Shown here: positions 40,289 to 50,157 of the stretch, piece after piece
How the letters are laid out: the number at the start of each line of letters is the position of its first letter
Position numbering within the stretch: the stretch's first letter is position 1
DNA from: Planctomycetota bacterium
Lineage (GTDB): Bacteria > Planctomycetota > UBA11346
NCBI GenBank assembly: GCA_014193115.1
Contig: BJHQ01000012.1
Span: 22,803-86,802, forward strand
Length of the DNA: 64,000 nucleotides
Reading direction: 5' to 3'
Notes under the pieces: generated by a model
The model's database searches: none
What the model saw: the letters and a program-made list of their open reading frames with translations, nothing else
What the model was told of the DNA's origin: nothing
Translations under genes and position numbers: made by a program

Positions 40289-41284
40289 ATGTCAGATTTC
40301 ACGGTCATCCTTCGAGAAACCCCGCCGCCGTGCCGGGATTCCGTTGCCGCCTTCCTCGGCAAGGCGTTCAGCTTGAAGGAATCGACCTGTGCTTCGATCG
40401 CCCATTCGGCGCCCATCGTCCTGCTCACCGGATTGACCATCGAGGAGGCGGCGGCCTGCTCCCTGTCTTTGTCCGGGCTCAGCCGTGCCGGGGCCACCGT
40501 CGATTTCGTCAATTCCTTCCCGGCCGATCTGCCCAAAATCGACTGGCCCCGCCGGCCGCAGCTGTTCAAGCGCGATCTCGCGGAACACATCGCCGATCTG
40601 CTCCTGCCGGTGCAAGGTCTCGCCCCAGGCACGACCTTGCTGTCGCTGATGGTCGCCCGGGTCGGTGGCAGCGCTCCAGCGACGGGTCGTTTCGCCGCGC
40701 CGATCCCAGGCGTCCCGGTTGCCGGTCCGGCCGCAGCGCCTCCACCTGGACGGCCCTCTCAGGAGTTCAGGGGCATCCAGCTGCCGGAGATCACGCCGTT
40801 CTCGACGCCGATGCTGCCGCCGACCGCGACTCCGCCGCCGACGCCGGCGGTGGGCGATACCGTGTCGCGGCTCAATGAGCTGTTCCCCGACGAAGGCGGC
40901 GGGTTCGTTCCGAACAATTCCGACATCACCAGCCTGCTCGATCGCCTCCTGCCTGATGAGCACGCCGGCGAACCGTCGACGACCACCCCCAATCCCATTG
41001 AAGTCAACCGCGGAGCCCCGCACCGGGTCGGGATGAACCAGGCCCCCGCCGCGTCTTCTCCGGGTTTCGCTGTCTTTCTGGCCAAGATCACCGACGAGGC
41101 CCGCCGGCTGAAAGCCGTTCCGCTGATCGCCGAACTCGGCAAGATCAGCACCGACGAAGCCGATGCGCTTTCGAAAAAGGTCATCATCCCGGTGATGAAA
41201 GGCGCCTCGAAGGACGAGGCCGAAGCGGCGAAGCAGAAATTCGCCAAGATCGGCATCATCGCCCGGGTCAAAGGCCCGGAATAG
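40289..41284 (+). CDS. Protein with two ribosomal L7/L12 C-terminal-like (ClpS-like) domains and a disordered linker
   Basis: N-terminal and C-terminal segments (VPLIAELGKISTDEADALSKKVIIPVMKGASKDEAEAAKQKFAKIGIIARVKG) resemble the L7/L12 CTD; P-rich middle. Confidence 0.5.
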   Translation: MSDFTVILRETPPPCRDSVAAFLGKAFSLKESTCASIAHSAPIVLLTGLTIEEAAACSLSLSGLSRAGATVDFVNSFPADLPKIDWPRRPQLFKRDLAEHIADLLLPVQGLAPGTTLLSLMVARVGGSAPATGRFAAPIPGVPVAGPAAAPPPGRPSQEFRGIQLPEITPFSTPMLPPTATPPPTPAVGDTVSRLNELFPDEGGGFVPNNSDITSLLDRLLPDEHAGEPSTTTPNPIEVNRGAPHRVGMNQAPAASSPGFAVFLAKITDEARRLKAVPLIAELGKISTDEADALSKKVIIPVMKGASKDEAEAAKQKFAKIGIIARVKGPE

Positions 41285-41455
41285 CGTGTTCTTTGATTGG
41301 CTAACTACCAAGCGGTATTTTTTATTCCGGTATAAATCCATTTAGCTTAACCTCTACAAGACAAAGATTGCTTCTCATATTTGAAATATCTGAGGAAGAA
41401 TCAGCATATTTGCACATGAAAATCGCGATGGGGCATAAGGCTTCCCTCTCATCGA

Positions 41456-41536
41456 GCCCAACGCAGGTTGCCGGAATTGGTAGGTTGAGGTGCTTAACAA
41501 GGCCCCATGGCCGGTTCGGCGATCTTTACGTGAGCA
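41456..41536 (+). repeat. attC-like site 1 (GCCCAAC...GTGAGCA; degenerate)
   Basis: Right half ggccggttcggcgatctttacgtgagc matches consensus ggcccggtgatctttgacgttgggc; the left boundary could instead be GCTTAAC at 41492. Confidence 0.55.
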
Positions 41537-41563
41537 GATAAACCAATACATGAGGATAATACC

Positions 41564-41938
41564 ATGTCAGTTACCATTTCATTATCGGACGAGGAAATCG
41601 ATGTCATTAAATCATTAAATTCAGAAAATGATGTATGGAATTTTAATAAATGGCTCCTTTTAATTGTGATGATTGGCATGCTCATTGGATCCATGGCCCT
41701 CATGATAGGTGCCATAATTTTTGAACAATATGGAGATTTCTTTGAAGGTTTCATTATCATGATGTTCTGGATTTTGGGAACAATCGCCTTAAGAAAGAAT
41801 TGGAAGGATAATAAACGATCAAGACTGATTGATATGATTTATGAAAAATATAAGGAATCCGCCAAAAAAGGCGATGTACCAGGACCGGCGACTCACGCCG
41901 ATTCCGCTTCGCCTCCGTCTATCCCGCCGGCCCGGTGA
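41564..41938 (+). CDS. Cassette protein: small two-TM membrane protein
   Basis: WLLLIVMIGMLIGSMALMIGAIIF and FIIMMFWILGTIAL; C-terminus runs into attC. Confidence 0.75.
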   Translation: MSVTISLSDEEIDVIKSLNSENDVWNFNKWLLLIVMIGMLIGSMALMIGAIIFEQYGDFFEGFIIMMFWILGTIALRKNWKDNKRSRLIDMIYEKYKESAKKGDVPGPATHADSASPPSIPPAR

Positions 41939-41953
41939 TTGTTGATGCTGGGC
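41861..41953 (+). repeat. attC-like site 2 (93 bp)
   Basis: gccaaaaaaggcgatgtaccaggaccggcga...ccgccggcccggtgattgttgatGCTGGGC. Confidence 0.8.
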
Positions 41954-41967
41954 TCTTGGCTAATAAA

Positions 41968-42486
41968 ATGTTGTACAAAATAAGCAAGACGCCTTTGGAC
42001 ATTATTTTTTATCCCAGATCCTTCTGGCGAACAGAGGACTGGAAGAGCAGTTCCACAACCATGAAACCGGGATACATTTACGACGAGCTGCTCTATGCGG
42101 GAGACTTCGATGAGGTGAATATTCATTTATTACCCAATATAAAACGAATTCGTCTCTGGAATACTGATGATGTATTTCAGAAACTTACCAGCGTTTCCAT
42201 TTACCCTGACCATCAGGTCAAGGCCGTGATGATCACGGATGAAACGCACAGGGATTTGGTTTATCACTTTTCTCCGACCGTTCACTATTTCAACGATGAT
42301 GGATTTGAATATGTACCAAGCAATGAATGGATATCCCGTGAACCCAGGACGCCGATTAAATCCGAAGTCATTACCATGAATGAGGCAATCACACGATGGA
42401 ATATCGAGATTCATTTTGTTGATAATTACGAATTACTCAAGTTGGAATTGACGAAATGTGGCATACAGTACTGTGAACAAACCTAA
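41968..42486 (+). CDS. Cassette protein: hypothetical
   Basis: ORF starting MLYKISKTPLD; first gene of a two-gene cassette with no attC-like site before the next ORF. Confidence 0.65.
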   Translation: MLYKISKTPLDIIFYPRSFWRTEDWKSSSTTMKPGYIYDELLYAGDFDEVNIHLLPNIKRIRLWNTDDVFQKLTSVSIYPDHQVKAVMITDETHRDLVYHFSPTVHYFNDDGFEYVPSNEWISREPRTPIKSEVITMNEAITRWNIEIHFVDNYELLKLELTKCGIQYCEQT

Positions 42487-42488
42487 CC

Positions 42489-43136
42489 ATGAACAACGAG
42501 CGGAAGCCCATGAATAATCTTTTCCTCATCACCGGCATGAGTGGATCGGGTAAATCCTCCCTCATCAATCCATTACGAGAAATGTGCAATGATCAATTTG
42601 AAATATGGGATATTGATCAATTGATCTACAACCTTCGGGATAATGGGCATCCTGAGGCGCCCTTGTTAAAATCGTGGAAATTAGGCGATGATGGCAATCC
42701 GTTTGTCGAATGTTTCAATATTGTCTATTCCGATGCCTCCAGATCGCAGAAAGACGTTATCATTTGCGGCACTGTCTTTCCAAAAGATGTTTATGCGAAA
42801 ACCAAATTAGCGTTTAACGCAATTCGATGGATTGGATTGTACGCGAATCCCGATGACATTCGCACTCGGCTCGGCACAAGAAAATCCGATATATGGACCA
42901 AGGAGATGATTGAATTCCATGCGAATTCATTCACTTGGTTCAAGAAAATCCCTGATCAAATTGACAATAAAATGATATTGATCAACACGAGTGACCATGG
43001 CATATCAGATGTCGTGAAAATAATACATAATCATTTATTGGCTGAATTGCGCTTACTCGCCCCAAAAAGCGATGCGCCGGAGCCGGCGAAGAGCGCTATC
43101 CCCGTTTTGCCACAGTCCGATCCGCCAGCCCGGTGA
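42489..43136 (+). CDS. Cassette protein: P-loop nucleotide kinase-like
   Basis: Walker A ITGMSGSGKSSLINPL; C-terminal tail encoded by attC. Confidence 0.75.
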   Translation: MNNERKPMNNLFLITGMSGSGKSSLINPLREMCNDQFEIWDIDQLIYNLRDNGHPEAPLLKSWKLGDDGNPFVECFNIVYSDASRSQKDVIICGTVFPKDVYAKTKLAFNAIRWIGLYANPDDIRTRLGTRKSDIWTKEMIEFHANSFTWFKKIPDQIDNKMILINTSDHGISDVVKIIHNHLLAELRLLAPKSDAPEPAKSAIPVLPQSDPPAR

Positions 43137-43151
43137 TTTTGAGCGTTGAGC
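43059..43151 (+). repeat. attC-like site 3 (93 bp)
   Basis: gccccaaaaagcgatgcgccggagccggcgaa...ccgccagcccggtgattttgagcGTTGAGC. Confidence 0.85.
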
Positions 43152-43164
43152 GCCAGGAATTTAC

Positions 43165-44028
43165 ATGATAAATAAAATAAAAGATCAGTCTCAGGATTTT
43201 CCAGGTGAATGCTCTTTATTTGCGCTGGATTTACATAATGGCCAGGAATTATATTTCAATCAGGATGCAGTTCTCAATATAGCCAGTACCTACAAATTAC
43301 TTTCACTCATCTGCGCATATCAAAAGGCCGATTCAGGGGATCTCGATCTTTCGAAAGTTGTTACCATAGAACAAAAGGATCATAAACCCGGCTCAGGCAT
43401 TCTTCACGAACTGGCACATGATCTCGTCATTACCATACGCGATTTGCTCAGACTGATGATCATCATGTCAGATAACGCCGCTGCCATCTATCTGTATCGC
43501 ATGCTGGGCGGCAATTCCATCAATGCGGTCGCGGCCAACTTGGGTTTAAAAAATACGGCGTTTCATCCCCCCAAGGATGGCAATAAAGCATGGGCAAGCT
43601 CGACTGCGCGGGAATTGGTGTTACTCATGCGCAGTATCATCTGCAATGAAGCTGCCAGCACCACATCCTGTGAGGAAATGCGCTCTATTCTTTCACGTCA
43701 ATTCTACATGGACCAAATCGGACGATTCCTCCCCATATATCCCTACGCGTCAGATTTAGGCCTGACACCACGTGTGACCTTGCGTTGCAAAGGAGGCTTT
43801 GGCATTGGTGTTCGTTGCGATGTCGGATCAGTTGAGTTTATCGATAATGCACCCTTACTCATTGCTGTCATTTGCAATTTTAAACAAAATGACCCGACGA
43901 AATACGGCCTTCTGCAAGAACCGGCAAGCATCCTCAATGCCACCATGGCACGAATGACGATTGACGCGATGCGGCCAGGACTGATTGATCTGCCCTATAT
44001 TCCTTACCATGTTGGCAAAAGAGAATAG
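43165..44028 (+). CDS. Cassette protein: class-A-beta-lactamase-like serine hydrolase
   Basis: ASTYKL (SxxK), SDN (IMSDNAAAIYLY), and RCKGGFGIGV at the KTG position; no evident signal peptide and no ExxLN omega-loop motif. Confidence 0.78.
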   Translation: MINKIKDQSQDFPGECSLFALDLHNGQELYFNQDAVLNIASTYKLLSLICAYQKADSGDLDLSKVVTIEQKDHKPGSGILHELAHDLVITIRDLLRLMIIMSDNAAAIYLYRMLGGNSINAVAANLGLKNTAFHPPKDGNKAWASSTARELVLLMRSIICNEAASTTSCEEMRSILSRQFYMDQIGRFLPIYPYASDLGLTPRVTLRCKGGFGIGVRCDVGSVEFIDNAPLLIAVICNFKQNDPTKYGLLQEPASILNATMARMTIDAMRPGLIDLPYIPYHVGKRE

Positions 44029-44048
44029 TGATCGCATCAACAAATTGA

Positions 44049-44375
44049 ACCCAACAAGCCGATGCGCCGAAGCCGGGCACTCTGTTTTTTCTTTGAAATA
44101 TCTCGTCGGCCGGGACTGTGATCACTGACGCTGAGAGTCGGTAAGGATGGTTTTAAACAACGCCGTCGATTGATATGGATCCGAAGCGGGCGATACATGC
44201 ATAGGGTTTCCACTGGACATAGCCGAGCCTCAAAAAGCATTACCTATACAGGAGTTTGTTAATCTATAATGGCGAATAGGCTGTTGATTGACTTTTCAAC
44301 CGAACAACTACATTTCCACACATGCGTCTAATTTTCATCACAGTGCTTCGGGATCCCCCGAACAAACTATTGGGT
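44049..44375 (+). repeat. attC-like site 4 (44049-44136) followed by conserved non-coding block; compound junction about 327 bp ending ATTGGGT
   Basis: ACCCAACAAGCCGATGCGCCGAAGCCGGG...gatcactgacGCTGAGA; block 44166-44375 is homologous to 45918-46114. Confidence 0.65.
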
Positions 44376-44383
44376 CATGAAAT

Positions 44384-45058
44384 ATGATTTTATACGAATA
44401 TAAAAATAAAAAATGTCAGTGTCAATGTTGTCACAATGATGCGTTTACTCAGAATATGTATTTAGAATTCGAGGCTTTGAAATGCCGAGAATGCAAAAGT
44501 ATATTTTGCTCATTATGTACAAGGAAGGAAGAAGATTATGGGGATGGACAACAATTCAAAATTAGAGGATTTTGTCATTTATGTCCACAATGCAAAACAC
44601 GGGACATGAATATTGTTAAATTAAATTTAACATTATCAGACGGTTCAATTCGTTCCGTTGAAGAGCAATCGTTTCCAGAATGGCCCGAAATGAACAAAAT
44701 TGTTTATGGACAAATGCAATCAGAAGTTGGTATTATGCTACCAATAATGGTTGAATATCTTAGCCAAAATTTATCACTTGCCAAGATTGAGGAATTGAAA
44801 TTTCTGATTATTCAAGCAATTTGCACGAATGTTTATGTTAAATGGTGTTATAATAAACAAGAAACAGTCAGGGGTTATATAAATAATAATGATGAAATAG
44901 ATTTCGTAGCACCAAAAATATATGAAACAATTCAGATTATTAGGCGGGTCATTGAAATCAAAAATAATAAACAGGCAATGATCCAACAAGGCGATGCACC
45001 GGAGCCGGCGATGAATGCTGTTTCATCTTCGCAACCGTCCATTCCACCGTCCCAGTAA
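44384..45058 (+). CDS. Cassette protein: Cys-rich putative zinc-ribbon protein
   Basis: CQCQCCHND...KCRECKSIFCSLC...FCHLCPQCK spaced Cys pairs; attC-encoded C-terminal tail. Confidence 0.7.
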   Translation: MILYEYKNKKCQCQCCHNDAFTQNMYLEFEALKCRECKSIFCSLCTRKEEDYGDGQQFKIRGFCHLCPQCKTRDMNIVKLNLTLSDGSIRSVEEQSFPEWPEMNKIVYGQMQSEVGIMLPIMVEYLSQNLSLAKIEELKFLIIQAICTNVYVKWCYNKQETVRGYINNNDEIDFVAPKIYETIQIIRRVIEIKNNKQAMIQQGDAPEPAMNAVSSSQPSIPPSQ

Positions 45059-45073
45059 TCTTTGACTTTGGGC
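44981..45073 (+). repeat. attC-like site 5 (93 bp)
   Basis: ATCCAACAAGGCGATGCACCGGAGCCGGCGA...ccaccgtcccagtaatctttgacTTTGGGC. Confidence 0.88.
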
Positions 45074-45086
45074 GACCAAAATCACC

Positions 45087-45458
45087 ATGACAATCGATAA
45101 TACACCATATTCCAAAAGCTTTGTTGACGTAACAATAGCTGGCGATTTTAAAGATGTAGGCGTTGTAAAAATGGCCATCAGAAAAACAACGGCCCATTGT
45201 TATTTTTGGATTAATAATAAATACCTGGGAAGATCGTTTTCACTGAACCAATTTACAGATGATTTCACTTATACATATGAAGATAAAACAATTATTACAA
45301 TCAGGGGCAAATGGTTACCGATATGGAAAATTAGCGTTTATAAAAACAATGAGTTTTGCGGAGAACATTACTATTTATTGGGAACATTTATTTATTATAT
45401 ATCAAATGCATTGTCATTATTGCTCATTTTCCTGGTGATATGGTGGATATCTAAATAA
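45087..45458 (+). CDS. Cassette protein: hypothetical with C-terminal TM segment
   Basis: ORF directly after attC; C-terminal FIYYISNALSLLLIFLVIWWI. Confidence 0.72.
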   Translation: MTIDNTPYSKSFVDVTIAGDFKDVGVVKMAIRKTTAHCYFWINNKYLGRSFSLNQFTDDFTYTYEDKTIITIRGKWLPIWKISVYKNNEFCGEHYYLLGTFIYYISNALSLLLIFLVIWWISK

Positions 45459-45468
45459 TGATTAAATT

Positions 45469-45560
45469 CTTCGACAAGTCGACGCACGGTTCCGGCTACG
45501 AATGCTGATTTTGCCTCGCCAACATCTCATCGATCTTCGCGGCGATGTTTGACGTCAGCC
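45469..45560 (+). repeat. attC-like site 6 (92 bp, degenerate)
   Basis: cttcgacaagtcgacgcacggttccggct...gcggcgatgtttgacGTCAGCC. Confidence 0.6.
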
Positions 45561-45594
45561 AATAATCTGAATGTAATATAATATAACCAAACAT

Positions 45595-45918
45595 ATGCCG
45601 GATCCAAGAAAACTGAAAATTGGCGATAGAATCAAATATATTGCCAGACCTGCACACTGGCACAGAAGCGATTGTACAGTTGGCAACGAGGATATTGCTT
45701 TTATTGACACCATTATTCGCAGAAAATACTGGCAAAGAATTTCCAATATAGATCAAAATGGGAATAGATGGTTCAGGGCAATTTTAACAATAAAAAATGA
45801 ACGAATATACCATTCATGGGCAGTTTTAGAAAGGACAGGGTGGATAAAATATCACAAACCGCCCAACAAAACGATGCGCCGGAGACGGGGACCGAGAGAC
45901 GGTTTCAAAGGAATATGA
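45595..45918 (+). CDS. Cassette protein: hypothetical, paralogue of 48822-49166
   Basis: LKIGDRIKYIARPAHW...DIAFIDTIIRRKYWQRISNIDQNGNRWF...HSWAVLERTGWI. Confidence 0.75.
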   Translation: MPDPRKLKIGDRIKYIARPAHWHRSDCTVGNEDIAFIDTIIRRKYWQRISNIDQNGNRWFRAILTIKNERIYHSWAVLERTGWIKYHKPPNKTMRRRRGPRDGFKGI

Positions 45919-46114
45919 TTCCATCGGGCGACACATGCATAGGGTTTCCATTGGATATTGCCAAGCCACAGAAAGCACTACCGTGACGGGATATTTTTTC
46001 ATCTAAAATGGCGAAGAGGCCGTTGATTGACTTTTCAATCGAATACCTATATTTACACACATGCGTCACATTTATATCATAGCCCTTCGGGATCCACTGA
46101 ACAAATTGTTGGGC
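45861..46114 (+). repeat. Long attC-like junction, 254 bp
   Basis: GCCCAAC(AA)...(AATT)GTTGGGC with perfectly complementary outer heptamers; inner block homologous to 44166-44375. Confidence 0.65.
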
Positions 46115-46156
46115 TTCATGACTTTTAGGAATCTTTCACGACAAAGGGGACTGTAA

Positions 46157-46495
46157 ATGAATACTAAACGAATTGTAGAATTCGAAATAGTAAGGACTCC
46201 GTTCGATAATACTGACTATGTATTGGGTCACAATGTATTTCAAATTAATGCCAACACACTTGGAGATGTGCTAGATGCAATTCCGACAATACTGCCTATT
46301 AGACTTGTCCCTCGAGTCGATAAGGGGAAATGGTGGATTATGCAGTCAGAGAATATGAAAATAAATGGGAAAATGATTGACATTCATTTTAAATTACCTC
46401 GTGGAAAATCTGATGATTATATATGTCCAAAACACGACATATCCGCTATAATTCCTGATGGCGCGTCGGTTTGGGCAGGTATAATAATTTGTTAA
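46157..46495 (+). CDS. Cassette protein: hypothetical
   Basis: ORF between two attC-like sites. Confidence 0.72.
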   Translation: MNTKRIVEFEIVRTPFDNTDYVLGHNVFQINANTLGDVLDAIPTILPIRLVPRVDKGKWWIMQSENMKINGKMIDIHFKLPRGKSDDYICPKHDISAIIPDGASVWAGIIIC

Positions 46496-46541
46496 ACGCA
46501 TGATTGTATAAATTGTGCACCATGAAGAAGAAAAGAAAATT

Positions 46542-46634
46542 ACCCAACAAGTCAATGCACCGTGGCCAGGGACTAGCGCTATATCTGCTTCACAACCATC
46601 AAAACCGCCTGCCCGATGATCTCTGACGTTGGGC
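46542..46634 (+). repeat. attC-like site 8 (93 bp)
   Basis: ACCCAACAAGTCAATGCACCGTGGCCAGGGA...ccgcctgcccgatgatctctgacGTTGGGC. Confidence 0.92.
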
Positions 46635-46656
46635 AACCAGAAATAAGGAAAATAAA

Positions 46657-47357
46657 ATGACAGATACTCATATTATTGCTCTCGGCGGTGGTGGGTTTTC
46701 AATGGAAAATTCACCATTATTGGATGATTACATCATCAGTATTTCCGGGGAAAAGAACCCAAGAATCTGTTTTATTCCAACTGCATGCGGTGATGCAGAT
46801 AGTTATTCCATTAGATTTTATAGGAGATTCGCATCCGTTGGATGTTATGCTTTTGATTTGCAATTAGTACGGCGTCAAATATCAGACCTTGAAAGTTTTA
46901 TTTTGTCTATGGATATTCTTTATGTTGGCGGTGGGAACACGGCGAACATGTTGGCGATATGGCGCGAACACGGCGTTGATACTATACTAAAAAAACATGG
47001 TTATCCGGCAAGATACTCTGTGGAATATCGGCCGGTTCAATTTGCTGGTTCGAATACGGAATTACCGATTCGTTTGGTCCAGGATTGAAACCGTTAAAAT
47101 GTTTAGGATTCATTCCTGGCAGTAATTGCCCACATTATGACGGTGAAAGTGAAAGAAGACCTGCCTATCATGCAGCAATGAAATCCGGTATGCCGTCCGG
47201 ATATGCTGTGGATGATGGCGCTGCTATCCATTTTGTAAATGGTCAGCCATATACATGTATTTCCTCCAGACCGAAAGCAAACGTATATCAGGTGGAATAC
47301 ATTGATTCTCAAGTCCAAGAATTTTCTTTGGAAACCAAATTTCTCGGAAATTTATAA
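46657..47357 (+). pseudogene. Cassette gene: peptidase E (S51)-like, split by a -1 frameshift at A7 (46989-46995)
   Basis: ORF1 HIIALGGGGFSMENS...DILYVGGGNTANMLAIWREHGVDTILKK; the -1 frame continues TWLSGKILCGISAGSICWFEYGITDSFGPGLKPLKCLGFIPGSNCPHYDGE. Confidence 0.85.
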
Positions 47358-47370
47358 ATACCACCAGGCG

Positions 47371-47394
47371 GTCCGAAGACCTTTGACGTTGGGC
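47371..47394 (+). repeat. Truncated attC (right half only)
   Basis: gtccgaagacctttgacGTTGGGC matches the consensus right end; no RYYYAAC partner at the expected distance. Confidence 0.6.
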
Positions 47395-47423
47395 AATAAG
47401 CATCTGTTCATGGAAAGGGAGTT

Positions 47424-48218
47424 ATGAACTCATACATTCAACTTTGTGACAATTTTGTAATAAAAAAGGAAAATCCACATTTTCCTGAAGCACTGAAATA
47501 TATAATTCTGAATGATATTGGCGCTCCCGTTGTAAAATTAATTGACACAATAATTGATGATAATGACACATATCTGGTGTTGGAACGCGTACGAGATAAT
47601 AACTTGGATAGTTCTATGTTTTCCGACTTTAACATAATTATGGAACTGATTTGCAAGATGAACAGTCTTAGAAATGATCTTTATCCTCGTGTAAATTTGC
47701 AATATTACCAGAATTACTGGAACGTCTTCAATCACTTACATGATGTGGCCATCTCTAGTGATTTATTTGAAGTCGACATACTTAAATGCCTCCCTAAACC
47801 CAATGATATATTTACAAAATTTTTGGGAATTATGCAACAAAGTGACATGGTGATTTCACACGGCGATCCAGCGAATTCAAATATGGGATTTCGTAGATCT
47901 CAAATGATTTTTTTCGACCTGGGGTTATCATTCCAAAGTCACCCAATGGTTGATTTTAGCCTTCGCACAGGTGCCCAAGCGACAAAATATCCATCAAATA
48001 TGAGTATCTCTGATGAGATAAATCGTTATCTGGATAAAATCAATTATAATTGCACTAATTCAAAGTCAGTATATTTTATTATATCTTGTATTTTGGGATG
48101 TTATATGGAGCAAACCGCCATTGATTCTGTATTCAAGGATGGAAAATCGTCAAAATATTATGGTTGGTGCAATAATACATTGAAGAGGTATATTAAATTT
48201 TCTTCTGGTGTTTTCTGA
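47424..48218 (+). CDS. Cassette protein: APH/choline-kinase-like phosphotransferase
   Basis: ISHGDPANSNMGFRRSQMIFFDLGLSFQSHPMVDFS (HGDxxxxN...hxDxG Brenner-type motif). Confidence 0.8.
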   Translation: MNSYIQLCDNFVIKKENPHFPEALKYIILNDIGAPVVKLIDTIIDDNDTYLVLERVRDNNLDSSMFSDFNIIMELICKMNSLRNDLYPRVNLQYYQNYWNVFNHLHDVAISSDLFEVDILKCLPKPNDIFTKFLGIMQQSDMVISHGDPANSNMGFRRSQMIFFDLGLSFQSHPMVDFSLRTGAQATKYPSNMSISDEINRYLDKINYNCTNSKSVYFIISCILGCYMEQTAIDSVFKDGKSSKYYGWCNNTLKRYIKFSSGVF

Positions 48219-48239
48219 ATTCCGTTTACAGATTATTCC

Positions 48240-48430
48240 GCCCAACACGCTGCTGCTCCGGTAGTGGCCACTATAGCCTCAAATAGTACTACGATGTCGA
48301 GATACAAATTACATGTGCGCATAGGCCGTTGATTGACTTAATCAATCGAACACATATATTAGTCTTCATGCTCCAATTTTCTTTCACGGCGGTTCTGGAT
48401 ACCCTGGTTCCATTGAACAAGCTGCTGGGC
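48240..48430 (+). repeat. Long attC-like junction, 191 bp
   Basis: GCCCAAC...GCTGGGC; right about 120 bp homologous to the 44375 and 46114 junctions (ggccgttgattgact...caatcgaa...gaacaa..tgctgggc). Confidence 0.6.
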
Positions 48431-48450
48431 AATATTCATAGAATAGGGGT

Positions 48451-48660
48451 TTGACTATGATAAATTGGGAATACCATACCATGAAATTTGAATTCGGCAA
48501 TTGGCTCGTGAGTGGCAAATTTGACGAAGAGCAGTTTAATGTTTCAATTAATTCGATGGGGACACGAGGATGGGAATTGATCAATGTTTTTGCCACTGCT
48601 GGCGGAAATGGAAATACAAAATTTATCATAGCGGTATTTAAAAGACAATCTCAGATATGA
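48451..48660 (+). CDS. Cassette protein: DUF4177-like small protein
   Basis: WEYHTMKFEFG...NSMGTRGWELINVFATAGG...FIIAVFKR. Confidence 0.8.
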   Translation: MTMINWEYHTMKFEFGNWLVSGKFDEEQFNVSINSMGTRGWELINVFATAGGNGNTKFIIAVFKRQSQI

Positions 48661-48724
48661 ACCATAAAGTAATACAAGAAATTATTTGACAACCTCTGCA
48701 ATATTTCATTTTCAAATGGAGTTT

Positions 48725-48804
48725 GCCCAACAAGTGGGTGCGCCGGTGCCGGTGATTGAAAGGAAAACCACTATGAAAACATCACATTCGCCGGTCCGTT
48801 GGGC
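48725..48804 (+). repeat. attC-like site 11 (80 bp)
   Basis: GCCCAACAAGTGGGTGCGCCGGTGCCGGTGA...ttcgccggtccGTTGGGC. Confidence 0.88.
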
Positions 48805-48821
48805 AGATTGATAGAGAAATT

Positions 48822-49166
48822 ATGCCAAACGCCATGACTCTGAAAGTTGGTGATTGGATAAAATACGTGGATCGTCCATTGGAATGGAAATCGAAGAGGT
48901 TCCGAGTGAACAGATGGGATATTGAATTTTTGGATAAACTTATTGCTCGGGGTCGATGGCAAAGAATATCGAAAATAGATGAATATGGGACACCCTGGAT
49001 ATTCGTTCGTCTAAAATACAATAATCATTATGAACATCACACATGGGCTATTTTTGAATCTTCTGGATGGATCATGAAATCTCCCCAACTAGGCGATGCA
49101 ACGGAGCCGGCAACTGGTCCTGCCCTGCGGCAATCTTTCGGCCGTCTCGATAAAATTCGTCGCTGA
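48822..49166 (+). CDS. Cassette protein: hypothetical, paralogue of 45595-45918
   Basis: LKVGDWIKYVDRPLEW...DIEFLDKLIARGRWQRISKIDEYGTPWI...HTWAIFESSGWI. Confidence 0.75.
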   Translation: MPNAMTLKVGDWIKYVDRPLEWKSKRFRVNRWDIEFLDKLIARGRWQRISKIDEYGTPWIFVRLKYNNHYEHHTWAIFESSGWIMKSPQLGDATEPATGPALRQSFGRLDKIRR

Positions 49167-49168
49167 CT
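49083..49168 (+). repeat. attC-like site 12 (86 bp, degenerate right end)
   Basis: CCCCAACTAGGCGATGCAACGGAGCCGGCAA...ttcgtcGCTGACT. Confidence 0.6.
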
Positions 49169-49209
49169 AGATGCAACGGGAATACTTATGACATTACTTA
49201 AAATGATCA

Positions 49210-49365
49210 ATGGAATACGATGTGTTTACAAATTCTGGTATAAAAGATAGCGATTTAATTGCACTGATTCATGTCGCAATCTTGATTTTTGTAATGTGTA
49301 TCATTTTTGTTCAATGTCGCCATCCTTTCCACCTTCTACACGATGAAATAAGAATAAAAGAATAG
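49210..49365 (+). CDS. Cassette small ORF: 51-aa single-TM protein (not in supplied ORF track)
   Basis: Hand translation MEYDVFTNSGIKDSDLIALIHVAILIFVMCIIFVQCRHPFHLLHDEIRIKE*. Confidence 0.5.
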   Translation: MEYDVFTNSGIKDSDLIALIHVAILIFVMCIIFVQCRHPFHLLHDEIRIKE

Positions 49366-49445
49366 TTTTTCATGTTTCAATTGGTTTTTAAATTGCCCAT
49401 TTCATGTCTCTTATTTCTTAACCTGTTTGTTCAATATAATACTCT

Positions 49446-49537
49446 CTCCAACACGGCAATGCACCAGAACCGGGGTTGATTGACCTTGTTGCATGGGAAA
49501 GTGGGTTGGGCCGGCCCGTCGAACTTTGACGATGTGC
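49446..49537 (+). repeat. attC-like site 13 (92 bp; last site of the array)
   Basis: CTCCAACACGGCAATGCACCAGAACCGGGG...ggccggcccgtcgaactttgacGATGTGC. Confidence 0.75.
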
Positions 49538-49587
49538 AGATACCTTCATGCCCACCAAACTCGGGCACCCCTCACCTCATCGTTCGG

Positions 49588-50157
49588 TCACTTGGCTTGT
49601 GGCGGGTCGGTTTTCGCCGGCGCTGTTCCCGACAACGCCTTCAATTGGGCCAGGCCTTTCTCGAAATCCGCTCCGACCATTTTATCCATGTCCATGAACA
49701 GGCACACCGCCTTGGTCATGAAGTCGTTTCGGCCGCGCATGGTCCAGGTCACCGTGGTGCCGGCTGCGGTGGGGGTGAAATCGAAGATGGTCTGGTTCTT
49801 CGCCGCGAATGGCTTGAGGAATTCCAATTTGATGGTGATCTGCTGATCGGGCTTGATGGAGCTGATGGTCATCGAGCCTTCGCCGACCTGATCGTTGCCT
49901 TGCCAGCGATAGACCGCGCCGACGCCTGCGGTGATTTCACCGTAGGTACGTTTCAGGTTGGGATCGATTTTCTCCCATGGGCTCCACCCGCCCCAGCGTT
50001 TGAAGTCGTTGACCTCTGCGAAGATGGCGGCGGGTGGCGCGTTCATCGCCAACGAGCGGGTGATGGCGAACTCGGCGGGCTGGACAGCCACGACCAGGAC
50101 CAGCGCAGCGACGACGACCAGAACCAGGCCAAGGATGATGAAAGCGATTTTCCGCAT
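49588..50157 (-). CDS. SRPBCC family protein with N-terminal membrane anchor
   Basis: N-terminal IILGLVLVVVAALVLVVA; FAITRSLAMNAPPAAIFAEVNDFKRWGGWSPWEKIDP; TTVTWTMRG. Confidence 0.87.
   Translation of the reverse strand: MRKIAFIILGLVLVVVAALVLVVAVQPAEFAITRSLAMNAPPAAIFAEVNDFKRWGGWSPWEKIDPNLKRTYGEITAGVGAVYRWQGNDQVGEGSMTISSIKPDQQITIKLEFLKPFAAKNQTIFDFTPTAAGTTVTWTMRGRNDFMTKAVCLFMDMDKMVGADFEKGLAQLKALSGTAPAKTDPPQAK

Follow-up and report, generated by a model that had tools for sequence, protein, structure and literature searches.

A repeated module with an attI-like right end at three junctions of a decayed integron cassette array in a Planctomycetota bacterium

Three junctions of a decayed cassette array in a Planctomycetota bacterium were found to be composed of attC sequence, either a whole site or its left arm, followed by a common module of about 205 bp (240 bp in the fullest copy), the right end of which resembles the attI sites assigned next to the integron integrases of the same genome. 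The junctions are J1 (44049-44376), J2 (45861-46114) and J3 (48240-48430). Coordinates without a contig prefix refer to the forward strand of the window, i.e. the whole 64,000-nucleotide stretch that was analyzed, which corresponds to bases 22803-86802 of contig C12.

The source genome comprises 5.25 Mb in 36 contigs and encodes two full-length integron integrases, on contigs C22 and C8, with Planctomycetota sequences as their best matches. Both are about 460 aa long (L132:9938-11326, minus strand; L133:7701-9101, plus strand) and carry about 120-150 extra residues ahead of the region matching most other integron integrases, an N-terminal-side extension that is also present in relatives of the same family. 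The arrays on C22 and C8 harbor dozens of near-identical attC sites of about 92 bp (GCCCAACAAGKCGATGCACCGGAGCCGG..CCGGTGATCTTTGACGTTGGGC), and the right end of attC sites in this genome reads TTTGAC followed by GTTGGGC. Beside the two integrases lies attI of the type TCCAYYCAATAARCT followed by GTTGGGC. The individual sites read TCCACTCAATAAACT on C22, TCCATCCAATAAGCT on C8 and, adjoining the integrase of the relative G003, TCCGTCTAATAAGCT, each followed by GTTGGGC; these three assignments are putative and were made by position next to intI. Some attI sites of other family members are similar, whereas that of G014 is dissimilar. Other contigs carry additional small clusters of attC left arms (G000; C1:830695-831801, C13:49362-50672, C18:83928 and C1:1261). 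The C22 array runs into the end of its contig, and C1:1261 may be its continuation.

The array in the window was delimited by a motif scan for attC arms and by reading, and extends approximately from 41492 to 49537. Its attC sites are of the same type as those on C22 and C8 but are degraded, with one to six mismatches in the left arms detected by the motif scan. The ordinary attC sites tested here folded with z-scores between -1.07 and +0.84 relative to shuffles, whereas an attC of an active array reached -3.69. No integron integrase was found on contig C12. The array is an old, decaying CALIN, i.e. several attC sites without an integron integrase on the contig.

Several cassette genes, all on the forward strand, are still recognizable in this array. 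The gene at 43165-44028 encodes a class A beta-lactamase-like protein (Pfam Beta-lactamase2, E 1.5e-43) with STYK and SDN motifs and KGG in place of the usual KTG; it scores below every NCBIfam resistance cut-off. A peptidase S51-like gene (46657-47357) is split into two overlapping frames, probably by a frameshift that would be a further sign of decay. Two separate cassettes (45595-45918 and 48822-49166) encode similar small proteins, which share WQRIS.ID..G..W and matched no known family. The 264-aa cassette protein encoded at 47424-48218 has a weak, below-cut-off likeness to aminoglycoside phosphotransferase/Bud32-type kinases.

The first-pass annotation had proposed a non-coding core common to the three junctions, and this was recovered by alignment. 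J1 and J2 are identical at 163 of 200 positions (81%; local score 119, maximum of 300 dinucleotide shuffles 17). Identity to J3 amounts to 66/86 for J1 (score 37, shuffle maximum 15) and 94/130 for J2 (score 44, shuffle maximum 13), so that J3 shares 72-77% over 86-130 bp with the other copies. Clear similarity between J1 and J2 begins at about 44172 and 45913, respectively, and extends as far as the R box; the three copies have no sequence in common in their 600-bp flanks. This is as expected for a unit that was moved by an integrase, and segmental duplication of the array was ruled out by the unrelated flanks. Copies outside the array, which according to the first-pass annotation would have pointed to an unrelated dispersed repeat, were not detected: a search of all 5.25 Mb returned these three only, all inside the array, and a dispersed genomic repeat was ruled out. 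Beyond this genome, a DNA search yielded no module homologue in 97 relatives, and none was found in the plasmids and phages searched or at 65 integrase loci. The core pattern had no homologue across a collection of 85,462 genomes, and a module profile gave only weak matches in 391 other genomes of the phylum (E at least 0.005), which were taken as chance.

To resolve the composition of the junctions, each was aligned to the canonical attC of the genome and scored against shuffles. J1 begins with a complete, degenerate attC of 88 bp (44049-44136; R'' ACCCAAC, R' GCTGAGA; score 106.5, shuffle maximum 61), which keeps its right half, GTGATCACTGACGCTGAGA, with its own R' box. It is followed by the fullest copy of the module (44137-44376, 240 bp). 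J2 consists of 52 bp of attC left arm without a right arm (45861-45912, the end of the arm being uncertain; score 56.5, shuffle maximum 42.5) and 202 bp of module (45913-46114). In J3 a 35-bp left arm (48240-48274), whose score of 48.0 is marginal against a shuffle maximum of 43.5, precedes 156 bp of module (48275-48430), which is missing roughly 80 bp at its start compared with J2. When 45901-46114 and 48265-48430 were compared with the canonical attC, scores were at null level and only the left arms matched. The J1 module has integrase R boxes on both sides; the J2 and J3 modules have no left boundary.

The junctions had been described as three unusually long attC-like sites with outer heptamers ACCCAAC/ATTGGGT, GCCCAAC/GTTGGGC and GCCCAAC/GCTGGGC. 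The heptamers are as stated, and attC parts as well as a common core are indeed present, but the core is not attC-like and the junction of 327 bp holds a separate complete attC. The junctions are therefore attC plus module and not members of an expanded attC class, which was ruled out since the common part is without attC similarity. Folding, suggested as a check, gave no excess either, as the modules fold no better than shuffles; since the ordinary attC sites of this array also fold weakly, weak folding alone would not decide attC status.

The right ends of the three modules are simple L-spacer-R sites with an R box of the GTTRRRY type, as is attI beside intI. They read TCCCCCGAACAAACT followed by ATTGGGT in J1 (44355-44376, starting at 44354 by the count of the scan), TCCACTGAACAAATT followed by GTTGGGC in J2 (46093-46114) and TCCATTGAACAAGCT followed by GCTGGGC in J3 (48409-48430), GTT being altered in two of the three R boxes. 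A matrix built solely from the C22 and C8 sites of this genome, and thus from no junction sequence, was used to scan 130 kb. Among 259,622 positions it ranked the ends of J3, J2 and J1 third, fourth and joint fifth, the other joint-fifth position being an attC left arm. After removal of the R box from the matrix J3 was still third, and J1 and J2 were tied at about ranks 6 to 13. The pattern TCCNYYNAAYAARYTRYTGGGY was written after the sites had been seen, and its matches measure rarity rather than discovery. Its seven occurrences in 392 genomes are the two attI sites of this genome, the three junction ends (J1 as C12:67156-67177, a 22-nt match that ends at the R box), the G003 attI and one other place, where no integrase was present in the surrounding 3 kb examined. 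The reversed pattern, used as control, matched once in the 392 genomes.

The likeness of the module right ends to attI is thus well supported by sequence comparison. Since no integron integrase gene adjoins them or lies elsewhere on C12, the sites are named attI-like and not attI, and because they share a single ancestral sequence the three ends amount to little more than one observation. The attC left arms weakly resemble the L box of attI, so a collapsed attC, in which a deletion joined R'' to R', could mimic the junction ends by giving an L-spacer-R end. The exact 5-nt spacer and the upstream TCC would fit attI better than a collapsed attC.

Within the module, the alignment of J1 and J2 reads GDTCIGFPLDIA(E/K)PQKALP over its initial 57 bp. 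In J2 this coding-like stretch, GDTCIGFPLDIAKPQKALP, is followed by a stop (45926-45986), and its J1 counterpart lies at about 44188-44262. Eight of nine changed codons are synonymous (p ~2.5e-4, for a pattern noticed before the test). In neutral simulations covering all frames and windows, an equally extreme result was obtained in 1 of 4000 runs for 19 codons, 8 of 4000 for 15 codons and 26 of 4000 for 12 codons. This suggests that the start of the module was formerly a translated tail or mini-gene. The peptide had no match in Pfam, in the PDB or in 391 other genomes of the phylum. A 'PLD' resemblance to the C-terminus of IntI was ruled out as an indication of its source, as 24-27% of shuffles equalled it in a comparison with 77 IntI tails.

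The best-conserved block of all copies (J1, about 44272-44315; J2, about 46011-46054; J3, 48317-48360) reads GGCYGTTGATTGACTT..TCAAYCGAA..TAYATT. It contains the inverted repeat GATTGA/TCAATC, with one mismatch in J1, and a promoter-like pair, TTGACT and TAYATT, separated by 15 or 16 nt. A promoter scan requiring a spacer of 16-18 scored the J3 pair only, and promoter-like matches in the region were only slightly above shuffles; from its sequence, the TTGACT..TATATT block may be a promoter. An Rfam covariance search of 41200-49600 gave no match up to E = 5, and neither terminal inverted repeats nor target-site duplications were seen around the copies. Neither a known structured RNA family nor a MITE is supported, the copies being confined to the array and their right edge lying exactly at the R box. 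Both a non-coding RNA and a MITE-like element residing in attC sites had been among the ideas of the first-pass annotation. Its third idea, the spread of an ORF-less cassette within the array, comes closest to the data: the J1 module is bounded by R boxes and nothing outside the module is common to the copies, but the right end is attI-like and two of the junctions contain half an attC.

The data directly establish the repeat, its restriction to the array, the complete or halved attC that precedes each copy and the attI-like right end, and several histories were weighed against these features. We give even chances to the module being an attI-ended, almost geneless cassette-like unit, which was spread by an integrase and then decayed together with the array. 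An integrase would cut at the R box of the module and at that of the attC before it, whereupon the module would move, and it would then serve as an entry point behind which further cassettes could enter. Later deletions in J2 and J3 would have taken the start of the module along with the right arm of the attC ahead of it, leaving the composites of 254 and 191 bp. Integrase-driven spread and the later one-arm deletions are steps that we infer, and loss of one arm from a hairpin site is plausible. Several points count against the cassette-like unit: no intact homologue of the module was found in the collections searched, the likeness to attI is confined to about 22 nt, outside of which the module is unlike the intI-attI intervals at C8 and C22, the three ends are hardly independent and a collapsed attC could mimic them, and this history does not account for the conserved coding-like tail. 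That the module represents a new cassette class with attI as its recombination site, acting as a mobile landing pad that creates entry points in the array and may bring a promoter of its own, appears rather doubtful.

The conserved tail has a natural place if the copies are instead three paralogous cassettes, each preserving the 3' end of a gene and an odd attC that is about 115-130 bp long and belongs to another family, with likeness to attI arising by convergence on the integrase binding box. The stop that ends the coding-like 57 bp indeed lies about 115-120 bp upstream of the R box, which is a usual spacing for a gene end plus attC. However, the stretch behind the tail has neither a palindrome nor excess folding, a left R'' arm was not found in it, its right end is nearer to attI than to any attC right end here, and the peptide is without homologue in the 391 other genomes, which leaves this origin rather improbable. 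The copies might also be relics of tandem integrons, three intI-attI-cassette units from which intI was deleted, so that each junction is the leftover upstream of attI and, in J2 and J3, the attC ahead of it lost its right arm to the same deletions. Such a history would account for the attI-like ends, for the half attC directly ahead of two copies and for the ordinary cassettes after each junction. It is nevertheless unlikely, since C12 holds no integrase remnant, three similar deletions would be required, and the coding-like tail is not an IntI C-terminus and reads towards attI, whereas intI at C8 and C22 reads away from it. Insertion of some unrelated sequence in or next to attC sites, either a small dispersed element or a non-coding RNA, might explain the conserved GATTGA-loop-TCAATC hairpin and the promoter-like block, but with no copies beyond the array, no Rfam match, fold energies no better than those of shuffles and a right edge that coincides with the integrase R box every time, we consider it very improbable.

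Normally, attI is single and fixed beside intI, and for this reason ready uptake of new cassettes and strong expression are limited to the first position of an array. With duplicated attI-like sites in its interior, an array would be able to take up cassettes in distant parts as well, and a cassette class ending in attI, if true, would provide one array with several 'first positions'. Composite junctions of attC arm and attI-like end also bear on how new recombination sites arise, and caution is advised, as site finders or readers may mistake them for attC sites of unusual length. In the open-access literature searched, the coverage of which was limited, no description of repeated attI-like sites within an array was found, and the novelty is provisional.

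Compared with the attI sites on C22 and C8 and in G003, the junction ends have the same TCC, pyrimidines, AAYAARYT, R box register and 5-nt spacer between L and R, but they lack an adjoining integrase gene, occur as three copies within an array and are unrelated in sequence further upstream. Geneless (ORF-less) cassettes with promoter activity have been described in Vibrio and Treponema (PMC11014356, PMC6557892), and promoters of this kind are stated to be unidentifiable in silico (PMC11014356). Like these cassettes, the module is short, has no substantial ORF and places a promoter-like block before the next cassette gene; unlike them, it does not end in its own ordinary attC but in an attI-like site without attC similarity, and its promoter role is putative. 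IntI1 uses attI-like secondary sites off-target (PMC10127599), which are likewise located away from intI. Those sites are scattered in plasmid or genome, whereas here the 22-nt match belongs to a 200-bp module that recurs within one array. The array as a whole fits a CALIN (PMC9668308), and differs from CALINs, as far as they are described in the part of that source consulted, by its internal attI-like sites.
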